This document shows positions 24,086 through 59,401 of a stretch of DNA of 64,000 nt, piece after piece. The notes under the pieces are model-generated. The model saw only the letters and a program-made list of their open reading frames with translations, made no database searches and was not told where the DNA came from. A program made the position numbers and the translations under genes. The DNA comes from Limnanthes douglasii subsp. nivea (Eukaryota; Streptophyta; Magnoliopsida; Brassicales; Limnanthaceae): positions 157,853,195-157,917,194 of the forward strand of contig JAUPFV010000005.1 of NCBI GenBank assembly GCA_036936605.1. Direction: 5' to 3'. How positions within the stretch are numbered: the stretch's first letter is position 1; every line of letters begins with the position of its first letter.

Positions 24086-24235
24086 GGGGTAATCGAGTTG
24101 GTTGAGTAAGACATGCTTATGATTAAAGATCATAAGTTTGAATCTCTCTACATACTTGTCACCTTGTGTGGTTTACCTTCTGGCGTTGGTTTGCAGGTTA
24201 TTGCGTCAGGGTTTACCCTGGATCCAAAAAAAAAA
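24086..24235 (+). mobile_element. tRNA-derived SINE
   Basis: A 150-bp unit with a tRNA-like head (GTAATCGAGTTGGTTGAGT, A-box region, and AGTTTGAATCT at 24135-24145, B-box region), a body containing CACCTTGTGTGGTTTACCTT, and a 10-A tail at 24226-24235. The body is almost identical to the SINE part of the insertion at 42165-42444, so both belong to one family. SINEs are transcribed by RNA polymerase III and mobilised by LINE proteins. No TSD was clear. Confidence 0.8.
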
Positions 24236-24762: not shown

Positions 24763-27452
24763 CTATAATGCTTCTTGAATAAGTCTTTGGGTTAAGGCTT
24801 TAGGAAGTCCCATGACTGTATCGACACCGCCTACCTACAAAACACCACCAACGTAATGGTAAGAGAAGTATTGATAAGATAAGTAATGAATTCAAAAACA
24901 CAAACACACACACTCGTTCATCCTGAGCGAAGACAAAACATGACGACATACCACTCTGTCAACAAATGGTACTATGAGTGGATGTTCAATCATCAACCCT
25001 CCGGCGACCTTATAAGTAATACTATCTGCGACCTGAGAAAATCTAGCATACAATATTGAATATACTGAAACATCAAACCACGATTTTAAAAGATCATATG
25101 AGTATGACAAAGTTTTACCAGGTCCTCAATCACTTCCTCTGGTATCTCATGGAAATAGACCTGCAGTATACCACCAACTATTTTACTCTTTTGATTGGTG
25201 ACTGAAATAATAATTAGCTTGAAACCTGAGTTTCATATATGCTGTATATAACAAAATGGAGGAGCTTTTTTAATCTCCAAATTGATACCTATGGACAAAA
25301 ATTACTAGGTCGGTTTTGATTCGGGTCTATTTTTATAACTGAAGTATCAAAACAAACCATTAAAAGATACCTTGGTTCAGTTTGGATCTCAGTTCCGAAG
25401 CACAAACAAACCCATATATTTAAATTAACCAACCGGTTCTTTATAAAACCAAACCAACCTCAATATTTTGGTTTTGTGTTTGGTTTTACCCATCCTCAGG
25501 TGTGCGGCCCTAGAAATTACTACCGAAATGGAAGCATGAAACTGTAAGTTCTTGTAGCATAAGTATCAAGTGATTAAAACCATCTTTGATTTTTTTCCAA
25601 GACAATATTGCTAACATATCATTCTATCAAACACCTCCTAATAGTACTTGTAAAACAAGAAAAAGTTCTCGAGAAAATCACGAGTTTAAATACCTCTGCT
25701 TTGTCCCAACTTCCTTTTCTCGTTCCAGTCTTGAGGTTGGTAACAAGCACAGATCCTACCACACCACCATGATAACCAGAATATCCTGCATCAGATATAA
25801 GTGTTACACTAAGTAGAAGTAACTTCCACAAACTATGAACTAAAAGAACAATAGAATTGTCATTTGCCAAACCTTTAATGAATTCACGCGCTTCTTCCTT
25901 GTTCAATGGTTTTTCTCTGATCACACCTTCATACACCACCACCTTACATGATTTGTGCGCCAATAAGAAATAACTTTCAGTTGAACTTAGAGCTTGTTTG
26001 GTGTTTTTCATAGCCTTTTGGCTACAAAAATACTAAACATGCTAAAAACTAGCTTTTCGTAGTTGTTAAGGCTTTTTAAATTTATCTAACTTTCTTTGCA
26101 TAGTAGATTTTAGATCATTAGCTTTTAGGTTTCAAAAGCTAAGTTTTCTCAGTGATGCACCAAACAGCCCTTTAACAATGCTTTCACTTCAAAAATAAGT
26201 TCCCTATGTAATGATTAGTATAATCTTTCATCCGCCTTCGTATCATTATATTGTAGAGGCATTAGAGAAGAAAAAGGAAAATTAGAGCATACCGTATCTC
26301 CGGTAATTAGCAGCGTCGTATGAGGATCTTCTACGAATTGTTTGGTGTTGTCTAGTCGCGATAAAATGGCATCTGCCTAGGAAAATGGTGAAGGTAAGAA
26401 CACCACACTACGATATAGGAGCAAATGTCAAGCCATCACACAGTATTGAATAACTATTTCGTATGAGTAAACTCTGTCTATTTTACTCTCATAAAATTAA
26501 GGAAAATAAACTAAATTTGAGAAAAAGCATGAAGCTCTAGATAACGATTATCAGCTCTAAGAAAATACTAACATCTTCAATTTTTCAATTTAAAAAGTTG
26601 ATCTCGCTAACATGCTCATCTTCCAAACAAGTAAAAAAAATTACACTTTCCTTTCACTTTCTCTCAACATTTTCTTTCTCGAGATTTTCTTACAAACCAA
26701 ACAGCCTTACATACTAAAACTGTTGGAAAATACATTTTCCTTTCAACCTCTACAATACATTAGATAACGTTCTCTTTTGATTTCGATATTGGTTAAGAAC
26801 CAAACAATACATATTAGAATTTTCCTGCTCATCCTCCAAACAAGTATAAAACATCACAGTTTCTTACTTAACATCTTCATCCTGAAAGTTTTCTTAGACA
26901 CCAAAAAGTCTTGCATACTAAGACTGTTATCATCAAACACTAAATCGCTAACATTCACTATCTAATAATCGCAACTCGTACAGCTATACAGGTGTTTGCT
27001 GTCTCTTATACAGGTACATTTCAAGTATATAAAAAAGAAGAAAAGGGTTTACACAGTTAGTACCTTAGCTTCAGCCAAAGTCATAACCAAATCCTCAGGC
27101 TTCTCCCTCCTAATACTTTGCTCATCAATATCTGCAGTCTACAAAACCACAAAATTTCAAGCTTCCATGTCAGACAAGAGACAACACAGCAACAGAAACA
27201 AAAAACCATAACCACAGTCATAATAGTACCATTATTGTGAACTCATATCCCATTTCACCCAGAAGTTTCTTCCTCGCCATCGATTGGGACCCCAATATTA
27301 TCTGTCATTTCGAAATTCTTTCGTTAAACCACTAAAGCGAAACAAAGTTAATAGTTCGCTGATAAAGAAGACGAAAGCGGAATTCAGGTGAGATTGAAGA
27401 AAGAGCGAAAAGAACACACCCTAAAATCGGGTTGATTTGCAGTCGTACCCAT
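24763..27452 (-). CDS. Maf-like nucleoside triphosphate pyrophosphatase, nine exons
   Basis: Maf/HAM1-type enzymes hydrolyse non-canonical or selected nucleoside triphosphates to monophosphates plus pyrophosphate; this subfamily's substrate (dTTP/UTP or m7GTP type) I cannot assign. Exons (minus strand): 27452-27420, 27301-27230, 27138-27064, 26376-26293, 25942-25873, 25785-25694, 25160-25119, 25032-24952, 24834-24763. All introns are GT-AG, the frame is continuous, total 206 residues, the usual family length. Visible motifs: ILGSQSMARKK (residues 13-23, the SxSxxR loop), IRREKPED (44-51), ITGDTVVVYEG (84-94, catalytic Asp87), GYHGG, and AGGLMIEHPLI with VMGLPKAL near the C-terminus. No signal peptide or membrane segment; probably cytosolic. 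The start ATG at 27452 gives the standard short N-terminus; the frame stays open upstream to an ATG at 27674, so a 74-residue extension is possible. Exon structure is inferred by family comparison. Confidence 0.93.
25300..25515. mobile_element. Possible insertion in intron 6 of the Maf-like gene
   Basis: This part of the 533-bp intron 6 is rich in GGTTTTGATTCGGG / CCAAACCAACC-type motifs in both orientations and ends in CAGGTGTGCGGCCCTAG, resembling the terminus of a small DNA element. Neither TSD nor a convincing opposite end was found. Confidence 0.3.
25990..26173. mobile_element. Probable MITE in intron 4 of the Maf-like gene
   Basis: The left end GCTTGTTTGGTGTTTTTCAT and the reverse complement of the right end (GGGCTGTTTGGTGCATC) are related, giving short imperfect inverted termini around about 180 bp that also has an internal AGCTTTTGG/CCAAAAGCT-like theme. 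It is within the 350-bp intron 4, away from splice sites. No TSD identified; hAT-like ends are a guess. Confidence 0.45.
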
Positions 27453-39526: not shown

Positions 39527-39913
39527 TGATAAGGATATAAATAAATAAAGAGTAAAAATAATTACTTTATAATTGGCTAAATTATTATTTTGTAGGTATG
39601 AAAGTTATATGGTGTAAAATATAAATATAAAGGACCAAGTGTGTAATTTGTGAAGAATATATTTTTACTAAGTAGAAAAGTGGAGTGAAATATCCACGTA
39701 ACAAACCAAATCTATTACATGTAACTACATCACCTATAAATAGGTGTACTTGTCTTGGGAATGAGGATGATTTGACATTTTTACACTTTTGACTTTCGAC
39801 TAGTTTCTTTCTTTAGTTTTCTTAACGAACTTTCTCTTTCTAGAAATATTCACAATCAAAGCATAAATCCATTTTAAACTCTCTTTTCCCTCCAAAATTA
39901 CTTAGACTTATCA
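39527..39913 (+). repeat. 5' LTR of gypsy D
   Basis: 387 bp, ends TGATAAGG...GACTTATCA. Clearly homologous to 50601-50985 along its length, with many substitutions, so the insertion is not recent. TATAAATA at 39735-39742 sits inside a perfect 7-bp dyad (CACCTAT-AA-ATAGGTG). The sequence after the LTR, TTGGTAACCAATGGG from 39914, is the position of the PBS; I could not name the primer tRNA. Confidence 0.92.
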
Positions 39914-40289
39914 TTGGTAACCAATGGGAAGTATCGATAGGTACCTAGATTTGAAATCCGGAACCAAAGAAGCAAGTGATCAGATAACTAGAGTACTATG
40001 GATTCTGAAGCTCAGATTGATCTAGTAGTAATTGTGGAAGTAGAGCTGGTGGAGTCAGGTATGGTTAGAGGATAAAATCGAGGTAGAATGCAAGGAGATG
40101 ATCAACACGATTAGTCTGATGTTGAGGATAAAATGAATCAATTATTGGAAAGAATAACTTATCTGAGTGATCAGCTTGATCAGAGAGAACAACTAGTAAG
40201 AGCTTATAAGGTACGATCCGAAGTACAACGATTAAATGAGAAGAAAGATTTAGAAGACCGATCTGACGAGTCTCACAATATTAACTGAA

Positions 40290-41515
40290 CGAGAAGTGAT
40301 CATCGATATGTGCAATTTCAGTCATAAAAAAGGATATCACTCTTATAGGAATGAGAAAAAAGACAATCATCAATATAATCCAACATATACAAGTGGCTAT
40401 TTTGGGTTAGATTATGAGGAGTTTTCTCAAAATCTTGAGAAAGGTGGTTCCTATGAAAAAGAGAGGGACATGTGCTCTTCGATAAAGAAAGATAGACGAC
40501 CTCAGAAATCTCGAAGAGAGCATATATCTAAAAACGATAATGGTTCCTATTTAGTGATTAAGAGTCCTCTCTTCAAATACAATAAAACTAATCAATACAT
40601 TAATCATGCAGATCAAAGTTTGTATGCAATTATGAGAAGTTTAACTGGAGGTGACCAATACATGCAAGGTGTTGATTGGACGAATTCTCCTCTGTCAGCT
40701 GAGATTAGGTCGATATCGCTTCTAAAGCATTTCAATATCACCAAATTTGAAAATTTTGATGGTGCACAAGACCCTGACGACAATATTGAGTAGCTAAAAA
40801 ATTACATGATGCATTTTGAAGATTATGGCAAGCTAGTTTATAAGGAATTTTCACAAACTTTCAAGGGCACAACCTTGAAGTAATAGAACAGAATCTCGAG
40901 GAGTCAATAACCAATTTAAGGGAGTTCAATACAGCTTACCAAAGGTAGTTTGTGGGAAGAACAGAAATTTGAGCTAATGGAGATACTATAATCCAATGCA
41001 AGCAAGAAATTGAAAAAAAATTAAAAGATTGTACTAGATGATTTATGTTAACCAGGAGTGAGTTGGATAATTCTGATGAGCAAGTAGCATGTGCTGATTT
41101 TAGACAAGGATTGTTCCCCGGAGATTTAGAAAATGAAACTCTGAGGAGAAGGGCATTGACTTTTGGAGCTTTAATGGCTCGAGTAGAGGAGTAGATCAAA
41201 GCGGATGAATCAACAAGGATTTAAATAGGGCCCAGTTTATCTGAGAGGCGTTAAGGAGAAAGAAATGCTCCTTCTAGTCAAGGATATTAGGGTAGTTCTT
41301 CACATTCTCAAGGACCCTCTCATCCAAGTGTGTCCACTAACTTGCCTCATCGGCTAGAACTGTCATATGTGTTGGCTTTGAATCATCAACCATCTCATGC
41401 TAGGTCAAACCACTGGATGAGACCGGACTATTTTGAAAATTTAACTGAAAGTATGCAAGAATTTTTAAGAGAGCTAAAAACCATGTTCATTTTCGAAAGC
41501 CTTCATCGATAAATA
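40290..41515 (+). pseudogene. Gypsy D gag remnant
   Basis: A 165-codon open piece at 40296-40793 ends in HFNITKFENFDGAQDPDDNI, the start of the plant gag core (xFDGxxDPxxHI). After a stop, FSQTFKGTTLK at about 40850 fits AxxWFxxL, and RRALTFGALMARVEE near 41150-41190 closes the core. A low-complexity charged N-terminal part begins near 40130. Gag would form the particle. Stops separate the segments. Confidence 0.8.
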
Positions 41516-42164
41516 GACCAAAAGAAAAGCAGAGTAATAAACTATGTAAATACCACAATGAAATTATGCATGATACTGCACTGTATAGTTTTGCAAAAAA
41601 GAAATTCAGACTTAATCGTGAATGGAAAGCTAATAAGTTTTGTTAAAGGACAAAGAAGTAGTCGACATATTCAGAACACTAATCCACCAGTATAACCGTG
41701 TGTGAATTCGTCTTCGAAGCAAGAAAATACATTGCTGATAGTTGGGCTTAGTGAAGGCATCAATGTGTCCTCAGAATATCTAGATTCTGACCCGGATCAG
41801 AGGATAATATTGGTGTTGAATGAAGCATCGAAACATAGAAGAGTAAGTCTTTGAATTTTTTCGGAGGAGATAATATGGCTGGAAATAGTAATAGTTCTAG
41901 GAAAGGTCATATGGTAAGTTTGGGTACTCAGTTAGAAGGAGGAATTTCCACTCATATTTATGGAAAACGTGTCACACCGTTTATCTTGTTTGATGGAATG
42001 ATCTAACGGGAATAACTTGTCCTCATGAAGATACAATAGTGATTGGGGCTTATATAACAGTTACATAAATTTGAAGGATACTCATTGACAATTGTAGTTT
42101 GACTAACGTGTTGTTTCTGTCAACATATGTGAAGACGCATAATACACTTGTAATTCTCCGATCT

Positions 42165-42444
42165 TTTTTTCTAGAAGAAACCCGTAACCGCTACTTAATG
42201 AGTACGCACAAGGTAAAATCTTGATTTGATGCGATAGCTTGCAAACCAATTCCAGAAGGTAAACCACACAAGGTGACAAGCTCAACCAAGAAACCATTTG
42301 TATAGGGAATCGAATTCATGACGTTTTGGTACAAGCTCACCTTACTCCACCAACTTGGCTACCCCCTTCGGGGAAAAAAAAGGATGCAACACAAGGACTT
42401 CCAAGGAGGTCACCCATCATAGTACTAATCTCGCCCAATGTAAG
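42165..42444 (-). mobile_element. Composite retrotransposed insert: 5S rRNA 3' part joined to a tRNA-type SINE
   Basis: The insert is flanked by one perfect 10-bp TSD, TCTCCGATCT (42155-42164 and 42445-42454), so both parts arrived together. On the minus strand it begins with 5S-like sequence (42444-42382), a T-run, then CCCCGAAGGGGGTAGCCAAG with a tRNA-like A box (TAGCCAAGTTGG), a B box (GAATTCGATTCCC) near 42310, the family body CACCTTGTGTGGTTTACCTT, and a short A tail abutting the TSD (42170-42165). The body matches the SINE at 24086-24235. Confidence 0.9.
42382..42444 (-). pseudogene. 5S rRNA-derived segment (3' half)
   Basis: The minus strand reads GGGCGAGATTAGTACTATGA, then TGGGTGACCTCCTTGGAAGT and CCTTGTGTTGCATCC, which is the 3' half of plant 5S rRNA with a few substitutions, followed by a T-run like the 5S terminator. 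The 5' half, including most of the internal promoter, is absent, so this is not a functional 5S gene. Confidence 0.92.
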
Positions 42445-42799
42445 TCTCCGATCTGAGCCTATTATAATGGGAGTTACTGAAATAATGGCACAAATTATTG
42501 GAGAGTTTTAAGGTGAGTTTTTGCTAGCCGTGGATCATTTAAGACAAAAGTTCAAGTGTTGTTTATGGTAGTGGATTGTCCAACAAGTTATAATGCTATT
42601 TTTTGGAGATCATGGCTGTAAATGATTCATGTTGTTACTTCCACAGTTCACCAGTGTGTGAGATATGTAATTGAAGATTGAATAAGAGTAGTTCGAAGTA
42701 GCCAACAAGTGGCTACAAAGTGTTACGCGAAAACTTTGCATAATAAGAAAAATATAACTCTTGACAAAATGGCTAGAATAATAATTAGATGGGCCTTCC

Positions 42800-43660
42800 T
42801 CAGAAGTGGACAGGTTGGATCATATGAGGGAGACATCGTGTAGAAAGTTTACGAATAGGAAAACTGTTATTACCTTATCCACGTTACCAACTGTTAAGAT
42901 AATTTTCTAAGCATTTGGGCGTTTTTGCTTGGAAAACCGAAGATGATGTGGAGGTTCCTTCCGAGATGATTTGCCACAGTTTTGAAGTTGACTCAAAAGT
43001 TAGACCTAAATTCAAAAGTGAATTATTTTTTCGGTGCAAAAATCTAAAGCAATAGTGACAGCAGTAGATCGGTTATCTAAGTTAGGACATATACGTGAAG
43101 CACATTATCTATTGTGGACTGAAAATCTTGTACTTATGAAGGAAAAATGGGAAATGGAGAATATGTGTTGATTTTACTGATCTCCATCGAGCATGTCTGA
43201 AAGATCCATTCCCTGCTCCAAGGATAGACATGCTTGTTGATTCAACATCTGGTAATAAGTTTATTTCTTTTATGGATACTTTCACTGGGTATAATCAGAT
43301 CTAAATGAATCTGAAGGATCAAGAAAGTATAGCATTTATTACTGACAAAGGATTACATTGTTATCGAGTTATGTTTTTTATCTCAAGAATGTTGGGGCTA
43401 CATATCAAAAGACTAGTGAATAAAGCTTTTGTTACCCAAATGAGGAGATATATAAAGTTTTTATAGATGACATGTTTGTCAAAAACTCTACAGACGAAGA
43501 ACACTTACGAGATTTAGAAGAAACTTTCTCAAATTTGAGAGATATTCTAGAGAAATATACCTTCAGAGTTAGATCGCGATTTTTTTGGGATACATAATAA
43601 GTGAAAAAAAGGATAGAAACTGATCTAGAACAATTAAAAGTATTGATAACAATGACTCAA
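42800..43660 (+). pseudogene. Gypsy D reverse transcriptase
   Basis: Pre-RT FAWKTEDD near 42930, then RICVDFTDLHRACLKDPFPA and PRIDMLVDSTSGNKFISFMD at about 43152-43280, FTGYNQI, DQESIAFITDKGLHCYRVMF near 43315-43375. The catalytic YIDDM block near 43450 is frameshifted (FIDDMFVKNS is readable in a neighbouring frame). The usual order of plant gypsy RT is intact but stops and shifts prevent function. Confidence 0.85.
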
Positions 43661-43779
43661 TCTCGGTAATTAGGAAAGTATAATTTTTGACAGGAAAGCT
43701 AGTAGCTCTAAACAGATTTATATTTAGTTTTTGAGATAAATGTGACTCATTTTTCCAAGTATTGAAGCAGGAAAATGAA

Positions 43780-44705
43780 TTTTTCTAGACACCATGTAGC
43801 ATTTTTGAAACTTAAAGAGCATTTATCTTGTCCGAAAGTTTTGTTTAAACCTCTTGTAGGAGAGAAATTATTTTCATACATTGATGTCTCTAATTATGTG
43901 GTGAGTCTCGGCATGGTAAGGGAGGTAGATAAATATCAATGACCGATATATTATGTAAGTAAAAGTTTGCTTCCCTCGGAGAAAGAATATCTGAAGCTAG
44001 AAAAATTTGCTTTGGTTTTAGTTGTTGCTGCTAAAAAATACGTACACATTTCCAAGCCCACACTATTAATGTAAGAACACCATTTCCATTAAAGAATGTA
44101 TTAGAAAGACCCGATAGTTATGGGAGAATGACAAAATGGTATGTGGAATTAAGGCACTATGATATTGATTTATTCCTAGAACCGCTATCAAGGCTCAAGC
44201 TTTACCAGATATTTCACTGAATTCCATTCAGAATATATTGATGAGGAAGAGAATAATGTAAGTACGTTACCAACAATAGATGAATGGATGATTGGAACCG
44301 ATGGATGCTCCAATATTTTGGGTTCATGAGTGTGAGTTCAATTGATAACTCCATCTGGTGAGGCAATAAACCAAGTCATTCGGTTCAGATCCAGTGCATC
44401 GAATAATGAGGCAGAATATGAGGTAGTGTTAGCCGGTTTAAGGCTTGCAAATATTTGTGGAGCTAAAAAAGTTCTCTTGTAAACTGATTCACAGCTTGTG
44501 ATGAATCATATATTGGGGATATTCGAAGCTAACAAGGATCATCTTATTAATTATTTGCGAGAATTAAGGGGGTTAGCATTTGTTTTTGAAAAAATAACGA
44601 TTGAGCATATTAATCGAGGAGAAAACAGTGCTGCAAATTCTTTGGCAATCATTGCTTATTTTAAGGGGTATTCTTGGATTATTTACAGGAGAACCCATCT
44701 ATAAT
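43780..44705 (+). pseudogene. Gypsy D RNase H and second (archaeal-type) RNase H
   Basis: First RNase H: LFSYIDVSNYVVSLGMVRE near 43870 and PIYYVSKSLLPSEKEYLKLE near 43950. Second RNase H: WMIGTDGCSN near 44288, SASNNEAEYEVVLAGLRLAN near 44395-44455, TDSQLVMNHILG near 44480, and a 68-codon open piece at 44498-44704 with INRGENSAANSLAIIA. The duplicated RNase H, the second with D..E..D residues visible, is typical of Tat-lineage elements. Confidence 0.82.
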
Positions 44706-44719
44706 GATGAAATCCAAAC

Positions 44720-45985
44720 AGTGTCGATACTCCGAGGAACTATTTATGGCATCTGAGCAAGAACATAAAGATTGGAGGACTGATTTGAGAGAATTCTAAC
44801 TTAAAAGCACTATTCCGTTTGATAAAAAGTTAGCTCAAATATTGAGATTTAGAGTGGATGAGTACAGAGTACTTGCAAAAAATTTATATAAGAAATATTT
44901 GAGTCGACCATTGTTGAGATGTTGGGGAAACAATAAATCTAAGATAACATTTTCAGAATTGCATGAGAGGGAAGACTCGGCTCATTATGGATTTAAGGCT
45001 TTAACAAGAAGATATTTATTTTCATGATGTTATTGGCCTTCCATAATAACTGATGCTAAAAATTTGGTTCGAAGCTTTGACACCTGTCAAAGATTTTCAA
45101 GTTCCATTCACATACCAATTTTGCCCTTATATTCAATTTCTAAAGCGCTTCCTTTTAAAAGATGGGGTTTGGATTTAATGGGTCCACTGTCTATTGCTTC
45201 GGGCGGATGACAAACAATTATAGCAGCGGCAGATTATTTTTTAAAATGGGAAAAATCAAAACCTCTGTTAGGAACAATAGCCAAAGATGTAATCATAATT
45301 ATTTTAATAATATTTGTTCTAGATTTGTAGTTCCTCAGAAAATCATTATAGATAATGGACCACAGTTTAATAACAGAGAGATGACATCATTTTGTGCGTC
45401 GAGGGGAATTACACAATGTTTTTCAACATCATTTCACTCTCAAGAAAATGGGCAAGTGAAGGTTACTAATAGAAACATTTTGGATCGTCTTAAGAAAAGT
45501 TTAGAAGGTGCAACTGAAAAATAACCTAATTATTTTCAAGAAATGTTATAGGCTTATTGAACAACACCTCAAACAACAACTCAATAACCTTCTTTCGCTC
45601 TGGTATATGGGATGGATGTGGTAAGCCCATCAGAATCAACACTTCCATCTTATATAATACTTAACTATTCTGAGGATGATAATGAGGAAGCTAGACGAGC
45701 GGAGCTTGATTTGATTGAAGAAAAAAAGGTTAAAGTACAATTGCATTGCGCTTCTTTATCAAATTTCAATGTAAAATTGTTATAATTCAAAGGTAAAACG
45801 AAGAGATTTCGAAGTAAGTAAATGAGTTTTGAGAAAAGTTTTTCTGTATTCAAAAGACAAAAGATTGGATAAGATAGCTCCAAATTGGGAAGTGGTCGAA
45901 AAGATCAAGCTAGAGACATATCACATTGAAGATAAATTGGGAAGATTTTTCCAGCGCCCTTGGAATATCAAACATTTATGGTTGT
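44720..45985 (+). pseudogene. Gypsy D integrase
   Basis: HHCC region: FRVDEYRVLAKNLYKKYLSR, a HEREDSAHYG segment and FDTCQRF near 45077. Core: RWGLDLMGPLSIASGG at 45160, IIDNGPQFNNREM near 45343 and SQENGQVKVTNRNI near 45440. The catalytic glutamate of NGQxEVTNR is lysine here. C-terminal end: GRFFQRPWNIKHLWLYC at 45940-45985 (usual RPWNxxHLRxYY). Several stops. Confidence 0.85.
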
Positions 45986-46904
45986 ATTGTGAGTAATTCT
46001 TTGAACACTTATGAGCGTGATATTTTTTTCATTTTTATATTTGATTTTTGGCATACTCTTTCCTCTCTTTTTTGGCTCAGGAAGATTTTAATAAGGTGTC
46101 TAAATGATAATTTTTCATCTTTACACTTAAAATATTATTATAAAAAAATAAAAAACATTTTTGTAAGTAAAACAACGATTGATCACCCTTGAGATATAAG
46201 AATATGTATTTATAAGGGCCAATTTGTATGGAAATATAATTTGAAGAGCCAATGTGTGTGGAAATATAATTCAAAGAGCTAATTTTTGTGGCGGTATAAT
46301 TCGAAGTGCCAATGTGTGTGGTGGCATTGTAATCCAATAACATTTTTAAGGCAAGATGAAAAATCAAACAACACTTCACATTAAAGACAAAAAACCAAGT
46401 ATTGTCATGTGATAAATTGAAGATAAATTGGGAAGATTTTTCCAGCGCCCTTGGAATATCAAACATTTATGGTTGTATTGTGAGTAATTCTTTGAACACT
46501 TATGAGCGTGATATTTTTTTCATTTTTATATTTGATTTTTGGCATACTCTTTCCTCTCTTTTTTAGCTCAGGAAGATTTTAATAAGGTGTCTAAATGATA
46601 ATTTTTCATCTTTACACTTAAAATATTATTATAAAAAAATAAAAAACATTTTTGTAAGTAAAACAACGATTGATCACCCTTGAGATATAAGAATATGTAT
46701 TTATAAGGGCCAATTTGTATGGAAATATAATTTGAAGAGCCAATGTGTGTGGAAATATAATTCAAAGAGCTAATTTTTGTGGCGGTATAATTCGAAGTGC
46801 CAATGTGTGTGGTGGCATTGTAATCCAATAACATTTTTAAGGCAAGATGAAAAATCAAACAACACTTCACATTAAAGACAAAAAAACAAGTATTGTCATG
46901 TGAT
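45925..46904. repeat. 491-bp tandem duplication
   Basis: Copies 45925-46413 and 46416-46904 are nearly identical (differences include TTTTTGG/TTTTTAG near 46069/46560 and one A-run length). The unit starts inside the last codons of the integrase and runs into the spacer, so two copies of the RPWNIKHL end exist. High identity suggests a duplication younger than the element. Confidence 0.95.
46218..46337. repeat. 30-bp minisatellite, four units (copy 1)
   Basis: Units start at 46218, 46248, 46278 and 46308, each beginning GCCAATNTGTNTGG or GCTAATTTTTGTGG followed by a TATAATT block. The same array recurs at 46709-46828 in the duplicated copy. It creates repetitive minus-strand peptide readings that are not genes. 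Confidence 0.9.
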
Positions 46905-50600: not shown

Positions 50601-50985
50601 TGTTAAGGATACAATAAATAAGAAGTAAAAATAATAACTTTATAATTGACCAAATAATTATCTTATAAGTATGAGAGATATTTGGTGTAAAATGTAAATA
50701 TAAAAGAATTACTATGTAATTTATGAGGAATAAGTTTGTACAAAGTAGAAAAGTGGAATGGAATATCCACGTAACAAACCAAATCCGTTATATTTAACTA
50801 CATCACCTATAAATAGGTGTAATTGTCTTGGGAATGAGGATGATTTGATAATTTTACATTTTTTACTTTTTACTACTTTCTCTCTCTAGTTTTCTTGAGA
50901 AACTTTCTATTTCTAAAAATATTCGTAATCAAAGCATAAAAATCCCTTTTAACCTTTTTTCTCCCAAAATTACCAAGACTTATCA
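50601..50985 (+). repeat. 3' LTR of gypsy D
   Basis: Ends TGTTAAGG...GACTTATCA, 385 bp, homologous to 39527-39913. The TATAAATA box is at 50808-50815 in the same dyad as the 5' LTR. Followed by the TSD copy TTATC. Confidence 0.92.
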
Positions 50986-51436
50986 TTATCAAAGAGCTCT
51001 CATGTTCAATGATCCATAAATATCCCTCATAATATGCTATAGTGGAGAGATTCAAGAACTAAATTTTTGACGATGTGAATATTTTTTACTGATGTTTTTT
51101 GCCAATGCTTTCAGTGTCTTTAAGTATTTTATCAGATGGTCTTTCCGCACTTTGGATTACCCCGATGTATGATTAATCAAAAGTTGAGAATCGCTTATAA
51201 AACAAACTTTTTAGCACTACAAATTTACGCAAGTCGTACTTATGCCAATAAATCTTCATACTCTCTTAAGATGTTAGATACTTGGAAACCAAAACGTATC
51301 ACTTCGTACATTTCTCCCTAGTTGGAGTTCTAAGTTGAATCCCTTGCTCCATAGCATAAATGTTTGATCCTCCATTAGTCTGAATGACCCACTTATCTGT
51401 AAGTTGTTCCCAAGTTTCTTCTGGATGAGATAATTA
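50986..51436 (-). pseudogene. Gypsy element E: RNase H part, upstream half of the D target
   Basis: The minus strand reads DKWVIQTNGGSNI near 51400 (usual W.xxxDGSSN), an SAERPSDKILKD-like stretch, KSLFYKRFSTFD, and LSTIAYYEGYLWIIEHESS at 51050-50993, the end of the second RNase H. Its continuation after removing D is the integrase at 39526 downward. The upper end at about 51436 meets an LTR-like sequence assigned to element C. Confidence 0.75.
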
Positions 51437-52162: not shown

Positions 52163-54900
52163 ATGTATCTGGGTAGATTTATCTTCACACCAAAAAATGC
52201 ATTGGTGAAAGGAGGTTGGCTGAATTTATCTGATTTGGAGAAAGTAAGAATAGACGTAAGAGTTGCAGCTGGTCTCCCTGCCTCTCCTGGTGGAGAAATC
52301 AGTCAACAAAAAACAAACACAGACCAAGGCTCATCATCATCATCAAAGACATCAAAGGTTATAAAATTACCTTTTGTCTAAACCCTATCTTCTCTACAAT
52401 CAATGTCTTCAGTTCAAGAGTCTCACAACCCCCTACTTAAAGAAAATACAGTTTCTAGTGTTAGGAAACCTTCATCTTTCTTGGAAATGGGGACGGATGC
52501 TGAGAAATCTATTGAGAAATCCACCCCTCGCAGAATAACTCGTCAATCTAAAGTTAAAACTACATCTACTTCTTCGAAACCTGCTAGTTCGGAGACGATA
52601 AATCCCCTAGCAGATACTAAACCATCTGAACAACAGTCAATCGTAATGGATGAGACTATGGAGGACAGTATAGAAGATACTCCCTTTGAGACTTCCAGAC
52701 AGATTGATGACACTGCAACAGATCGGGAAGGTAAAGTTAAAGTGGGTCTGCCCAACACTGAGTCACTTCTGGAGCGCTTGGAAGGGAAAGTGGGGCCAAA
52801 CTTTCAAAAAGTCAGTGTGAAGCACTTGACAGCCCTCCAAAATTTCTTATGTGTATACCCATACTGCTGAGTTGGGTCGGATCTGAACAAAATGGGGCTT
52901 CCCTGAATCTGTTAAAGTGAGAATCCCAGTCACTCCCGAGACTATTATGGACTACAAGTCCTATGAGCTAGTAGTATACACTGAACTGCTGAATTGGGGA
53001 CTCTGGTTCCCTTTGGATCTAGAGATAGTCAGGTACTTTCACCTGATAAAAATATGTCCGAGCCAACTAAGCCGACATGCATGGTATACTTTGTTGGCCG
53101 GTATGATGGCATCAAGGTTTTAAAAAATCCCACTACCCATGGAACAATTTGCTAATGTGGCGAGTCTGTGCAAGAACCACCACATCCCCTTTTACCACTA
53201 TAACATGGGAACGATTATAAGGTGGTAAATGATTTGTTGGAGTCCGTAAAGCCACGGATGACCCAATTTCTGTTTATCAGTGGTGCATGGGATAACGGGA
53301 ATAAGATAAGAACTGCCACTAATCTAAGTCAACTGACCATTCGCTGGAAGAGTACAAATAATCTTTATTTATGTTTTCCGTAGTTTCTAAATAATGTGTT
53401 GTTATTCCGAACTGAAAGTTGTGTTTCCTTGTAGTTTTTTCGAAGAAGTTTCCGGAGCATTTAGAGGCAGGCCAAGACACCTGTGCCAAGCTAAATGAAT
53501 GGACATCGGAAAAATGGGGAACGGTTTCCACAGTTGCTTTACTTTTGGAAACTTTGTAAGGTCTCACCTGTGGAACACTACAAGGAATATAGACCTTACT
53601 TGGGAACAACTGACCACTCCTCCACCTGTTGATGTTATCTTAAAGAGAACTGAGGCTAAGAATGGAAAATCTATTTTTCATCTCGGGTCAAAGCCCCTAG
53701 CCACCTGGATAAGATTAAGAACAACAACAAGAAGAAAAACAAAGTTGACCCATCTCAACAAGTCACACAAGGGGTCAGTTGGAAAACCAAGAGGGAATCA
53801 ATGCTGCTTTGCTGGAAGTAGTTGAGGTTATAGTCAAAGAATCCGACGGAACGGATGATCCGCCTCAGATCATAAGGAAGGATCACAAGAGACGCAAGTA
53901 GAGCAGCGATGAAAAAGCTACATAGAAAAAAAAAGTTAGCATGGGGGAAGAGATAATTATACGTCCTTTTGAACTCCCTCCTCATATTCCTATTGATCCT
54001 ACTCTGCAAGAAGAAATCCCACCTAACCTTCCTTCTCAAACGCTCCTTCCTTCCGAACAGGCAATTGTTTAAGGAAATGTTAATCTGGATGCGTTTCTGG
54101 ATATGTATTTTAGTGATCTGGACAAGGATGACTTCGTGGAGCCTTATTCTCATGGCAATACGGCCAATGTTGTAATCCATAACGGTGGGACATACGCGAT
54201 ATCAAGTGAGCAAGACACTCTAGGCTATACCTTCATGGGTTTAATCCGTCCGGTAATTAACTTAGAAAGGCAAGTGAGGGAATAAAAAACGACCATAACC
54301 TCCTTAACCACAAAAAACCAGGACTTAAAGAATGATATCTCCACTGCTCAGCAAAGCATAGAAACTTTGAAGAATGAAAAAAATGACCTGGCTACCGAAC
54401 TACGCCAGTTAAAAGATGCTAAAAAAGATCTTCAGACTAAGCATTCCAAACTGGAAACCTCTGTCTCTAATGAGATCAAAACTTTAAAAGAGAAACTAGC
54501 TGCCAGTGCCGCTACTGTTACAACTTTATCCGAAGAAAAATCTAATTTTGAAAGACTTCTCAAGGAGAAGACTGAGGAACATACTTCTCTAATAAACAAA
54601 CAAACTCAGGAGATAGTTGCTGGAATATAGAAGTATGCTACTGGAATAGTGAATTCCTTGAAGAAAAGAGAAGATGGGATTAAGTCTGACATGGTTTGTC
54701 TATTCCACGAGACTTTTCCAAAGAGGAATCTTGGTCCTTTGTGGAAATATGTAAAGTATGATGATATCCCTTTCTATATCCTGGCAGATGGTGACAAGCA
54801 CAACTACGCAAGCGGAGAAGACTCTGAAGATAATAAAGGAACTAGTGAGAGTTCGAGCGCTGAACTCAAAAGTCCTAAGTAGGGTAAAAACGATAAAGAA
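52163..54900 (+). pseudogene. Antisense extra ORF of gypsy C (putative gypsy-type transposase domain plus coiled coil)
   Basis: Plus strand, opposite to element C. Main open pieces: 52163-52378; 52403-52867 (155 codons, Ser/Thr-rich, acidic); then VRIPVTPETIMDYKSYELVV at about 52918 with LLNWGLWFPLDLEIVRYF and ICPSQLSRHAWYTLLAGM (PF04195-like); then KKFPEHLEAGQDTCAKLNEW near 53445-53510; then 54367-54627 (87 codons), a heptad coiled coil (ELRQLKDAKKDLQTKHSKLE); then 54649-54879. A TTCCTTGTAG acceptor near 53427-53436 suggests an intron at the same place as in D's ORF. Role unknown. Internal stops exist, but long open pieces remain. Confidence 0.75.
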
Positions 54901-55475: not shown

Positions 55476-57125
55476 TCTAAGTATAACCTGAGATGTTCAA
55501 CGTTGTATGGGTGATTTAGTGTTCTATCCTCTTTGTTTTGAAGTGTGTATGTCCTTGGTTTGACTTTTTCACATACCACATAAGGACCTTCCCAGTTCGG
55601 AGCCAGCTTGCCGAACTGATTTTCCTTAGTGTGAAAAAAGACTTTTCTTAAGACTTTGTCTCCTAATTGAAAATCTCTTCTTTTAACTTTGGAGGCAAAT
55701 TTGCTCCTTATCAGACCCTGATAGTGTGTTGTTCATAAATGTGCTTTAACTCTTCTCTCTTTAATCATGTCCAACTAATTCCTAACTGCCATACCCATTC
55801 GGAATAGTTTTGGATCCCGTAAGATGGTAAAGTAACTTCTATGGGTGTGATTACATCCATCATATAAACGAGGGCAAACGGGGATTCTTGTGTAGCAATC
55901 CGAGGAGTAATTTTGTAAGCCCACAATACTTATTGCAAATAACTTGGCCATTTCTCTACATCTCCCTCCATATTTCTCTGCAGCTCAGAAAATATTGTTC
56001 GATTAGCAACTTCAACTTGCCCATTAGCTTGAGGGTGGAATGGAGAAGAGAAACAATGTTGAATTCCTCTGGAGCTGCAAAACATTTCTATGTCTTTATT
56101 ATCAAATTGTGGCCCATTATCTGTGGTGATCTTCTGAGGAACCCTAACCACCACCACCACAACCACCACAAGGTGATCTTCTGTGGTGGTGGTGGTTGTT
56201 GTTGTGGCGGTGGCGGTTGTGTTGGTGGTGGTAGTTGTGGTGGTGGTGGTTATGGTTATGGTTGTGGTGGTGATGGTGGTGTTTGTGGTGGCGATGACGG
56301 TGGTGGTTCTGGTTGTGGTGACGGTGGTGGTTGTGGTGGTTGTGGTTGTGGTGGTGGTGGTGGTGGTTATGGTTATGGTTGTGGTGGTGGTGGTGGCGGC
56401 GACAGCGGTGGTGGTTTGTGGTGGTGGTGGTTGTGGTGATGTTGGATAAAATTAATTTTATAACTACCTCAGAAGTGGTTCCAGCTAAGGGAGTTGGCTC
56501 TATCCATTTAGAGAAATAGTCATTTGCAACTATGATCGTTCAACATCCACCGGATGCCATGAGAAGCGGCCCAACCAGATCCAACCCCCATTTATCAAAA
56601 GGTATTGGTTCAGATATGAACTCCATAGGAACAGCTAGCACATGGATTTCATTATCATATTTCTGGCAATGATCACACTTCTTGACCATATCTCTGCTAT
56701 CTGCCATTATTGTTAGCCAATAGTACCCTGTTAATACCAATCTTCTAGTTAAGGTTTTGTAGCCACAATGTGCAGAACCTTCTCCATCGTGTGGTTCAGA
56801 TAAAAAATAATTGGGACTCTTTAAATCCCAAACAACGGAAGAGAGCTCTGCTAAATGATTTCTTATACAGAACTTCTTTCAATACCACGAAACCATGAGC
56901 CTTATATTTAATTTTCTTAGCCAAAGCTTTATCCGGAGGTAGAATCTCATCAGAAATAAACTGAAAAATACTATACCTCCAGTCTTTGGGTTGAATAACA
57001 CATATGCTCATACTTTCTTCATTATCTTTACCCTTTTCTTGGCTTGTTTGTATTGATGGACACTCTAGCATCAGAATCCATCGGTAAGACTCGGAATAGG
57101 ATATGGTGGCTAAAGAGTCTGCCAC
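55476..57125 (-). pseudogene. Gypsy C integrase, with microsatellite insertion
   Basis: The minus-strand open piece 57125-56796 (109 codons) contains RYSIFQFISDEILPPDKALA and KAHGFVVLKEVLYKKSFSRA (pre-zinc region). Then VLTGYYWLTIMADSRDMVKK with CDHCQKYDN (56740-56540), FDKWGLDLVGPL, and, after the microsatellite at 56147-56446, RVPQKITTDNGPQFDNKDIE and HPQANGQVEVANRTIF (56169-55930). The three catalytic acidic residues (D, D, E) are all visible. A C-terminal part continues to about 55480. Frameshifts and the repeat make it inactive. Confidence 0.88.
56147..56446. repeat. CCA/TGG microsatellite inside the integrase
   Basis: A short (CCA)n tract at 56147-56170 is followed, after GGTGATCTTCTG, by about 260 bp of (TGG/TGT/TGA)n at 56182-56446. 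GGTGATCTTCTG occurs on both sides of the CCA tract (56125-56136 and 56172-56183). It replaces about one block of integrase (the stretch before KITTDNG). It generates glycine-, valine- and tryptophan-rich plus-strand readings that are not genes. Confidence 0.95.
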
Positions 57126-58010: not shown

Positions 58011-59401
58011 CACACTTGTCTGGTGATCTTGAAATAAGCCTGTTCAACGCAGCCAAGCGTCCGGTTAATCTTTGAACTTCTTTAGTGCTCCGAGGAGGGT
58101 CCATAGCTAATAGAGCGTTGAGTTGATCTGAATCGGGTTGAATCCCTTTTTCACTTATAACATACCCTAAGAACTTTCCAGATCGAACCCCAAAAACACA
58201 TTTTTCAGGGTTTAATTTTAAGTTGACAGCCTCTGGTGTGGATTATTTCAGACTGAGGGTAATTTGAGGTATTTTGTGGTATTTAATGTTCAAGTAGTTT
58301 GTAGTTAGAGATTTGAGCTACCTGGTTGTATTAAATGTTCATTACCCTCATTAATGAAAGTGGTTGGGTATTTATACCCTTAATTGTGGGCCACATGGGC
58401 TTTCGGGTCATGCTTACGAAATTGGGTCGAGTTCATAAACGCATTAGTTTATTAAGCAGTCTAGCAATTAGCTTAGTCATAAAGTGATTAGTTTTTAATA
58501 CTTTAGTCCTGTTCGGATGGGTTAGTGGGTGATTTTTGTCCGAAATTCCCCTGTCCGGTTTCTACGGTGAGTGGTGAGAAAATCCGGACTCATCAGCCTC
58601 TAGGTTAGAAAATGTTTCCTGAAGATCAGAAATATGCGTATCTTCTTCAAAGCTTTTCACCATTATGTCATCTATGTAAACTTCCATATTTTGGCTAATA
58701 TGACTAGCAAAAGCTTTATCTACAAACCTTTGATAGGTAGCCCCTGCATTTTTCAATCTGAATGACATCACTTTATAACAATGAAGACCTATGTCCGTAA
58801 TAAAAGTGGTATGATCTTGATCTTTCGGATCTATTTATATCTAGTTGTACCCTGAAAAAGCATCCATAAAGGACAACAGTTTGTTCCCTGAGGTGGAGTC
58901 CATCAACTGATCTATCTGAGGAACAAGATAAAGATCTTTGGGACATGCCCTATTAAGATCAGTGAACTCAATACACATGCGTCATTTTCCATTCTTTTTC
59001 TTGACCAAGATAGGGTTTGCAGTCCATAATGGGTACTGAGATTCTTTGATGTGACCCATTTTGGTCAAGCGATAAACTTCTTCAACAATTATATCTGTTT
59101 TTTCTTTAGAGAAATACCTTCTTCTTTGTACAACTGGTTCAACATCAATTCGTACGGATAGCTTATGACAAATTATATTAGTAGGCACTCTGGTGACATC
59201 ATTATTGCACCATGCAAATACATTTAGATTATCTGATAGAAAATATAACAGCCTTTGTTTCAAAGTTGGTGCCAACGTGGTACCAATCCTAACACTTTTA
59301 CCCTCAGCTAGGGAATGAATTTCAACTTCTTCTATAGGTATTATGACACTGGGAACCTCTCTAGGATCATCTATTTCATTGTCATTAGAGGAAGGATCCA
59401 A
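58010..59401 (-). pseudogene. Gypsy C reverse transcriptase, split by a solo LTR
   Basis: The 139-codon piece 59401-58982 starts before the RT and contains KSVRIGTTLAPTLKQRLLYF, FAWCNNDV, VQRRRYFSKEK and YPLWTANPILVKKKNGK. It continues CIEFTDLNRACPKD, LLSFMDAFSGYN, then 58771-58562 MMSFRLKNAGATYQRFVDKA and the catalytic VYIDDIMVKSFEEDT. After the solo LTR (58234-58595) it resumes NLKLNPEKCVFGVRSGKFLG, GIQPDSDQLNALLAM and RLAALNRLISRSPDKC. The catalytic YIDD is intact; interruptions are few stops plus the insertion. Confidence 0.9.
58234..58595. repeat. Solo LTR (family A) inserted in gypsy C RT
   Basis: 362 bp, ends TGGTGTGGATTATTTC...GGACTCATCA, flanked by perfect TSDs GCCTC (58229-58233 and 58596-58600). 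Same family as 31380-31781. It interrupts the RT just after the catalytic-motif segment. Confidence 0.95.

Follow-up and report, generated by a model that had tools for sequence, protein, structure and literature searches.

The locus described here is a 274-nt insert on the minus strand, running from 42438 to 42165 in plus-strand coordinates as read in the sequence and lying antisense within a decayed gypsy-type element. It is part of a 64-kb window, by which we mean the whole stretch of DNA that was analysed. Along the minus strand, which is the sense direction of the insert, the order is a 16-bp target-site duplication (TSD), 57 nt of 5S rRNA, a run of eight Ts (T8), the bases CCCCGAA, a SINE, A6-7 and the second copy of the 16-bp TSD. 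The order and orientation of these parts, the junctions between them and the single TSD around this bipartite insert are direct observations and make up the observed part of the explanation developed below. The parts, with the second SINE copy of the window, are as follows.

42439..42454, minus strand: TSD on the 5' side of the insert, sense AGATCGGAGACTTACA; 15/16 identical to 42149-42164
42382..42438, minus strand: 5S rRNA segment, nt 62-118 of the 119-nt 5S (3' half); 52/57 identical; Rfam RF00001 match below the gathering score
42374..42381, minus strand: T8 run directly 3' of the 5S segment, possibly a pol III terminator or U-tail; from sequence reading
42367..42373, minus strand: CCCCGAA, possible leader of the SINE RNA; the A box starts 12 nt downstream of its first base
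42171..42366, minus strand: SINE body, with a head carrying A-/B-box-like motifs, a 3' domain common to the 24086 copy and an extra 3' tail
42350..42361, minus strand: A box TAGCCAAGTTGG; full match to the consensus
42306..42316, minus strand: B box AATTCGATTCC; 2 mismatches to the consensus; 33 nt after the A box
42227..42280, minus strand: 54-nt domain common to the SINE copy at 24155-24208; 88.9% identity
42165..42170, minus strand: A tail, A6 plus one A in common with the TSD; from sequence reading
42149..42164, minus strand: TSD on the 3' side of the insert, sense AGATCGGAGAATTACA
24086..24235 (approximate), plus strand: second SINE copy, with no 5S head, a different middle and a shorter 3' end

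What marks these parts as one insertion? The TSD is a repeat of 16 bp with 15 matches and one mismatch, TGTAATTCTCCGATCT at 42149-42164 and TGTAAGTCTCCGATCT at 42439-42454, and it flanks the entire insert at both outer edges, as the TSD of a SINE-type retroposon does. The initial annotation of this DNA had described a single perfect 10-bp TSD; there is indeed one TSD, and those 10 bp are the core of the longer, imperfect repeat. The window yields 63,694 16-mer pairs with this spacing, and the TSD pair is the only one with at least 15 matches; on this count we rejected a chance origin. When spacings of 150-449 were sampled at every 7th base, 41 of 2,729,464 16-mer pairs matched at 15 or more positions, seven of the 41 being two-letter sequence. 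A looser control, in which any of 121 offsets was allowed between 26-nt windows, gave at least 15 matches in 20 of 20,000 random pairs. Homology to 5S begins at the first base past the 16-bp TSD, with no filler. The 5S segment had been annotated as 63 nt of the 3' half on the minus strand; the 3' half is present at a length of 57 nt, and the six remaining, non-5S bases are explained because they belong to the TSD.

Neither the SINE nor the 5S piece has a TSD of its own within the edges searched, the accepted repeats being 7-8 bp if perfect and 9-16 bp if one mismatch or none was present. Could the two parts nevertheless have arrived independently, the SINE inserting next to a 5S fragment already in place and the outer repeat arising by chance? 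The single mismatch in the repeat can be cited for such a pair of events and nothing else can, while a 15/16 repeat at both outer edges, found once in the 63,694 pairs, and the lack of an inner TSD both speak against it; we consider it highly improbable. The annotated insertion of 5S and SINE as one unit has thus held up, one TSD fitting both outer ends, and a single retrotransposition event very probably carried the 5S piece and the SINE together. A 5S piece that formed part of the gypsy element finds no support here and was set aside, since the TSD encloses it. Viewed as an empty site, the joined flanks have stops in all three frames, so no open reading frame is seen to be broken by the insert.

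The 5S segment (plus-strand 42438-42382) is identical at 52 of 57 positions to nt 62-118 of plant 5S rRNA, with an E value of 3.5e-18 for the window; the reference was an Arabidopsis-type sequence of 119 nt. The segment ends at nt 118/119, within a base of the 3' end of the RNA. Across the 64 kb the next-best 5S match reaches only E 0.24. In Rfam, RF00001 (5S) matches the same region with 27.6 bits and E 0.002, under its gathering score of 38, in an alignment extended to full length and spanning the absent 5S half. It is the sole Rfam family at E<=1 within 41900-42700, and at gathering scores Rfam has no match in the whole window. Box A of the 5S gene lies at nt 50-64; most of it is absent here, and the IE and C regions are retained. 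The intact internal promoter of boxes A, IE and C that characterizes SINE3 elements is not present, the 5S sequence starting at nt 62. The T-run that had been noted between 5S and SINE is confirmed as T8, and it is separated from the SINE start, GGGGGTAG, by the further seven bases CCCCGAA, which have no match in 5S and of which only the AA is common to the second SINE copy.

Is the downstream part a tRNA-type SINE? It ends in A6-7 immediately before the TSD, which bears out the annotated A tail and is the A-rich 3' tail of a SINE-type retroposon. The annotated tRNA-like A and B boxes were recovered, the A box as a full match and the B box with two mismatches, at a gap of 33 nt, but the weight of the pair is limited by its frequency in chance sequence: two such pairs lie on the two strands of the window (one in the insert, one at 54310) versus two in six one-strand shuffles. 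Taken by itself the box pair, being near chance level, is weak evidence for a tRNA-type SINE. No tRNA model fits either SINE copy: ARAGORN reports none, and Rfam, searched at E<=10, gives none. Degenerate SINE heads are often missed by tRNA models; the missing match appears to lower the claim of tRNA origin only, and we use the label "tRNA-type" provisionally.

The relation between the two SINE copies is better evidence for a SINE than the boxes are. The body of the insert recurs in the 24086 copy, as that of a repeated element should: 54 nt are shared at 88.9% identity (E 5e-15), and over its opening 25 nt the insert SINE matches that copy at 84%, which is weak alone (E 0.05). A pattern for the common domain, allowing up to 2 mismatches, has 6 matches against 2.68 expected, and is exact only in the two known copies. 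The 24086 copy has an A box with one mismatch and, at the 33-nt gap, one of three tied B-box candidates with three mismatches each. The two copies (24086-24235 and 42165-42366) have their start and 3' core domain in common and differ in their middles and 3' tails, which suggests different subfamilies. No 5S part was found at the 24086 copy, in agreement with the initial annotation. A search for its TSD gave only A-rich matches, the best of which overlaps the copy's own 3' end, and none was accepted; the true 5' end of this copy is uncertain because it lacks a convincing TSD. Apart from these common SINE parts, the 64-kb window holds no second copy of the insert. The predicted RNA fold of the insert is no more stable than those of shuffled sequences (z +1.4, with 184 of 200 shuffles folding at least as well), so structure gives no argument.

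How did part of a 5S rRNA come to stand at the head of a SINE? The explanation that we favour, and think somewhat probable, is that of a single bipartite retroposon, in which target-primed SINE cDNA was continued, by a template switch or after RNA ligation, into a U-tailed 5S rRNA and ended inside it. The reverse transcriptase of a LINE would prime cDNA at the target, in the A tail of the SINE RNA, and synthesis would proceed to the 5' end of that RNA (CCCCGAAGGGGG...). It would then pass into the 3' end of a U-tailed 5S rRNA, by a template switch or as the result of an earlier ligation of the two RNAs, and would stop within the 5S at nt 62. The product would be sealed between the 16-bp TSD copies, antisense to the decayed gypsy element. 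Three findings carry our estimate: T8, the TSD and the similarity to 5S. In support, 5S and SINE have the same orientation, and the 5S runs to nt 118/119 and is followed by T8, as it would be in a U-tailed RNA. Ligation or template switching has also been invoked for sense-oriented chimeras of small RNA and LINE-1 that lie inside one TSD (PMC13174262), and template switching for a 5S-SINE chimera of a moth (PMC3272025). LINE reverse transcription, the switch or ligation step and the role of CCCCGAA as the leader of the SINE RNA are what we infer beyond the junctions themselves. A SINE RNA that began at CCCCGAA would have its A box 12 nt downstream, which is a usual distance from the start site in pol III type-2 promoters. 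With CCCCGAA as a presumed leader, the reading as a single cDNA leaves no stretch of the insert unplaced.

Several observations count against this explanation. The TSD has one mismatch, the box pair is near chance, no tRNA model fits and a single locus has been seen. CCCCGAA is without a demonstrated source. The target nick, read from the sequence as CTC/AGATC in the sense direction, does not resemble the site of the L1 endonuclease, which is T-rich. Pol III usually leaves fewer than eight 3' Us; T8 could have come from DNA read-through or from uridylation, and this counts against a plain U-tail.

Read-through from a 5S gene or a Cassandra element is the main rival. Under this rival, the neighbour of the SINE 15 bp upstream would have been a Cassandra LTR or else a 5S gene or pseudogene, and a transcript spanning both would have been retrotransposed with 5' truncation. 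T8 followed by CCCCGAA does resemble a 5S terminator with a short piece of spacer DNA, but T8 should halt pol III ahead of the SINE. Cassandra LTRs, for their part, are described as keeping 5S promoters and terminators (PMC7215508). Against this, the window contains no source locus, its other 5S matches being no better than E 0.24, and we judge read-through unlikely.

Does the insert instead belong, as a 5'-truncated copy, to a heterodimeric 5S/tRNA SINE family with a complete 5S head in its full-length members? In favour of this, the insert as a whole looks like a SINE, having an A tail and a single TSD, and there is a precedent in the moth element HaSE3, which combines 5S with a tRNA SINE (PMC3272025). 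Yet this copy starts at 5S nt 62 with most of box A missing, and 5S is absent from the second SINE copy, the only further one recognised in the window. In addition, an internal T8 would terminate transcripts from a 5S promoter. A family of this kind is in our view quite unlikely. Because T8, a terminator, separates 5S from SINE and the 5S promoter is mostly lacking, we lean towards a one-off join at the RNA or cDNA level rather than a family. Junction patterns had 0 matches in viral contigs; a plain plant 5S pattern likewise had 0 there, so this result carries no weight. The single pattern match among genome contigs, in a Nitrospirales MAG (L001), was rejected, as it has a 3-nt gap, no T-run and no 5S context. 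On the explanation that we favour, the chimeric insert should be a dead end, because the remnant of the 5S promoter is too small and the A and B boxes of the SINE would start transcription downstream of the 5S.

Chimeras of this general form are known from mammals, where U6, U3 and 5S join LINE-1 in single insertions (PMC13174262). There, 20 of 27 5S/LINE-1 insertions have TSDs of 7-17 bp; for chimeras of small RNA and LINE-1 in the same orientation the cause given is RNA processing (ligation) or template switching, and for those in opposite orientation it is twin priming; and U6 chimeras do not, as a rule, propagate further (PMC13174262). The plant insert is similar in that a small noncoding RNA lies on the 5' side of a retroelement in one insertion with a shared TSD, which is the mark of a chimeric insertion, and differs in that the partner is a SINE and the host a plant. 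The 5S pieces of human LINE-1 chimeras usually lie in antisense and meet the junction with their 5S start (PMC13174262). In the plant insert the orientation is sense and it is the 3' end of the 5S that abuts the junction, a difference that counts against our explanation. U6 chimeras have this arrangement, so the plant insert resembles the U6 kind more than the 5S/LINE-1 kind.

HaSE3 of Helicoverpa armigera is a 5S/tRNA-SINE chimera that became a family and has been attributed to template switching (PMC3272025). Both cases fuse 5S rRNA with a tRNA-type SINE. HaSE3 is a family in which the head, a 5S sequence including boxes A, IE and C, sits on the body and tail of HaSE1, whereas in the plant insert, known from one locus, a promoter-poor 3' half of 5S precedes a complete SINE that has A and B boxes itself. 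SINEs with 5S heads, termed SINE3, were reportedly described by Kapitonov and Jurka in 2003. Like SINE3, the insert has 5S sequence at its 5' end; SINE3 uses it as a promoter, whereas the insert lacks most of that promoter and has T8 after the 5S. A fungal case of a 5S-headed SINE is also on record (PMC5063351).

Among plant mobile elements, Cassandra TRIM elements are LTR elements that carry 5S sequence and a terminator (PMC7215508, PMC10853983). The insert shares with them the 5S sequence and terminator in a plant mobile element, and differs in having an A tail and a 16-bp TSD with no LTR seen. The TSD of Cassandra is 5 bp; the insert shows neither LTRs nor a 5-bp TSD, and the window contains no second 5S-bearing repeat. 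Angio-domain SINEs, a tRNA SINE superfamily of flowering plants, are said to have been described by Seibt in 2020, and their eponymous domain is 37 bp long and lies at the 3' end of the SINE. With these the insert has in common A-/B-box-like motifs, an A tail and a short 3' domain common to two copies, and it differs in its 5S extension. A review that mentions the Angio-domain superfamily describes plant SINEs as tRNA-derived (PMC9033089).

In the titles and abstract openings of the open-access literature searched, no plant 5S/tRNA-SINE fusion is reported, nor did we find this pair of partners reported in plants. The chimeric insertion is real and well bounded, and is probably a one-off of a known kind. 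Why does such an insert matter? It is a base-resolved fossil of what appears to be plant reverse transcription joining two RNAs, and through such a step SINEs presumably acquire new heads. Chimeras of this sort show which RNAs come into contact with the retrotransposition machinery, and their sequences allow switching, ligation and read-through to be distinguished. Were the family reading true, the element would be a 5S-headed plant SINE.

The gypsy-type host element is itself decayed. Nine ORF pieces, eight of them from the gypsy stretch, were compared to Pfam, and four have a match (RVT_1, RVT_3, Integrase_H2C2 and rve, at 43140-45521), that to RVT_3 being the only one above the curated cut-off. 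Neither near flank of the insert (41000-42154; 42455 to about 43096) recurs within the window. Further right, only the reverse-transcriptase stretch at 43097-43487 does, matching 58651-59044 at 69%. Around the insert-bearing gypsy element, direct repeats of about 390 bp at 39527-39915 and 50601-50987, identical at 83.9%, are arranged like a degraded LTR pair. Beside the decayed element lies a tandem duplication of 489 bp (45925-46413 and 46416-46904), which, because its copies are near-identical (99.6%), is probably far younger than the adjoining element.

Two further features lie elsewhere in the window. An ORF on the minus strand at 25622-26032 has matches to Maf-like proteins (7-methyl-GTP pyrophosphatase); among the best 120 of 299 matches many are Maf-like proteins of named eudicots, and the best named one has 65% identity over 62% of the query, so that the window looks like plant DNA and its host is most likely a eudicot. 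A different ORF had no protein match at E<=0.001. Pfam gave no match to the Maf-like ORF at E<=0.01, and the fragment is possibly a pseudogene or an exon. At 55930-56539 there is a long simple-repeat stretch, glycine-rich in one frame and Thr- or His-rich on the other strand, and the ORF that contains it has an end that, judged by eye, is integrase-like.
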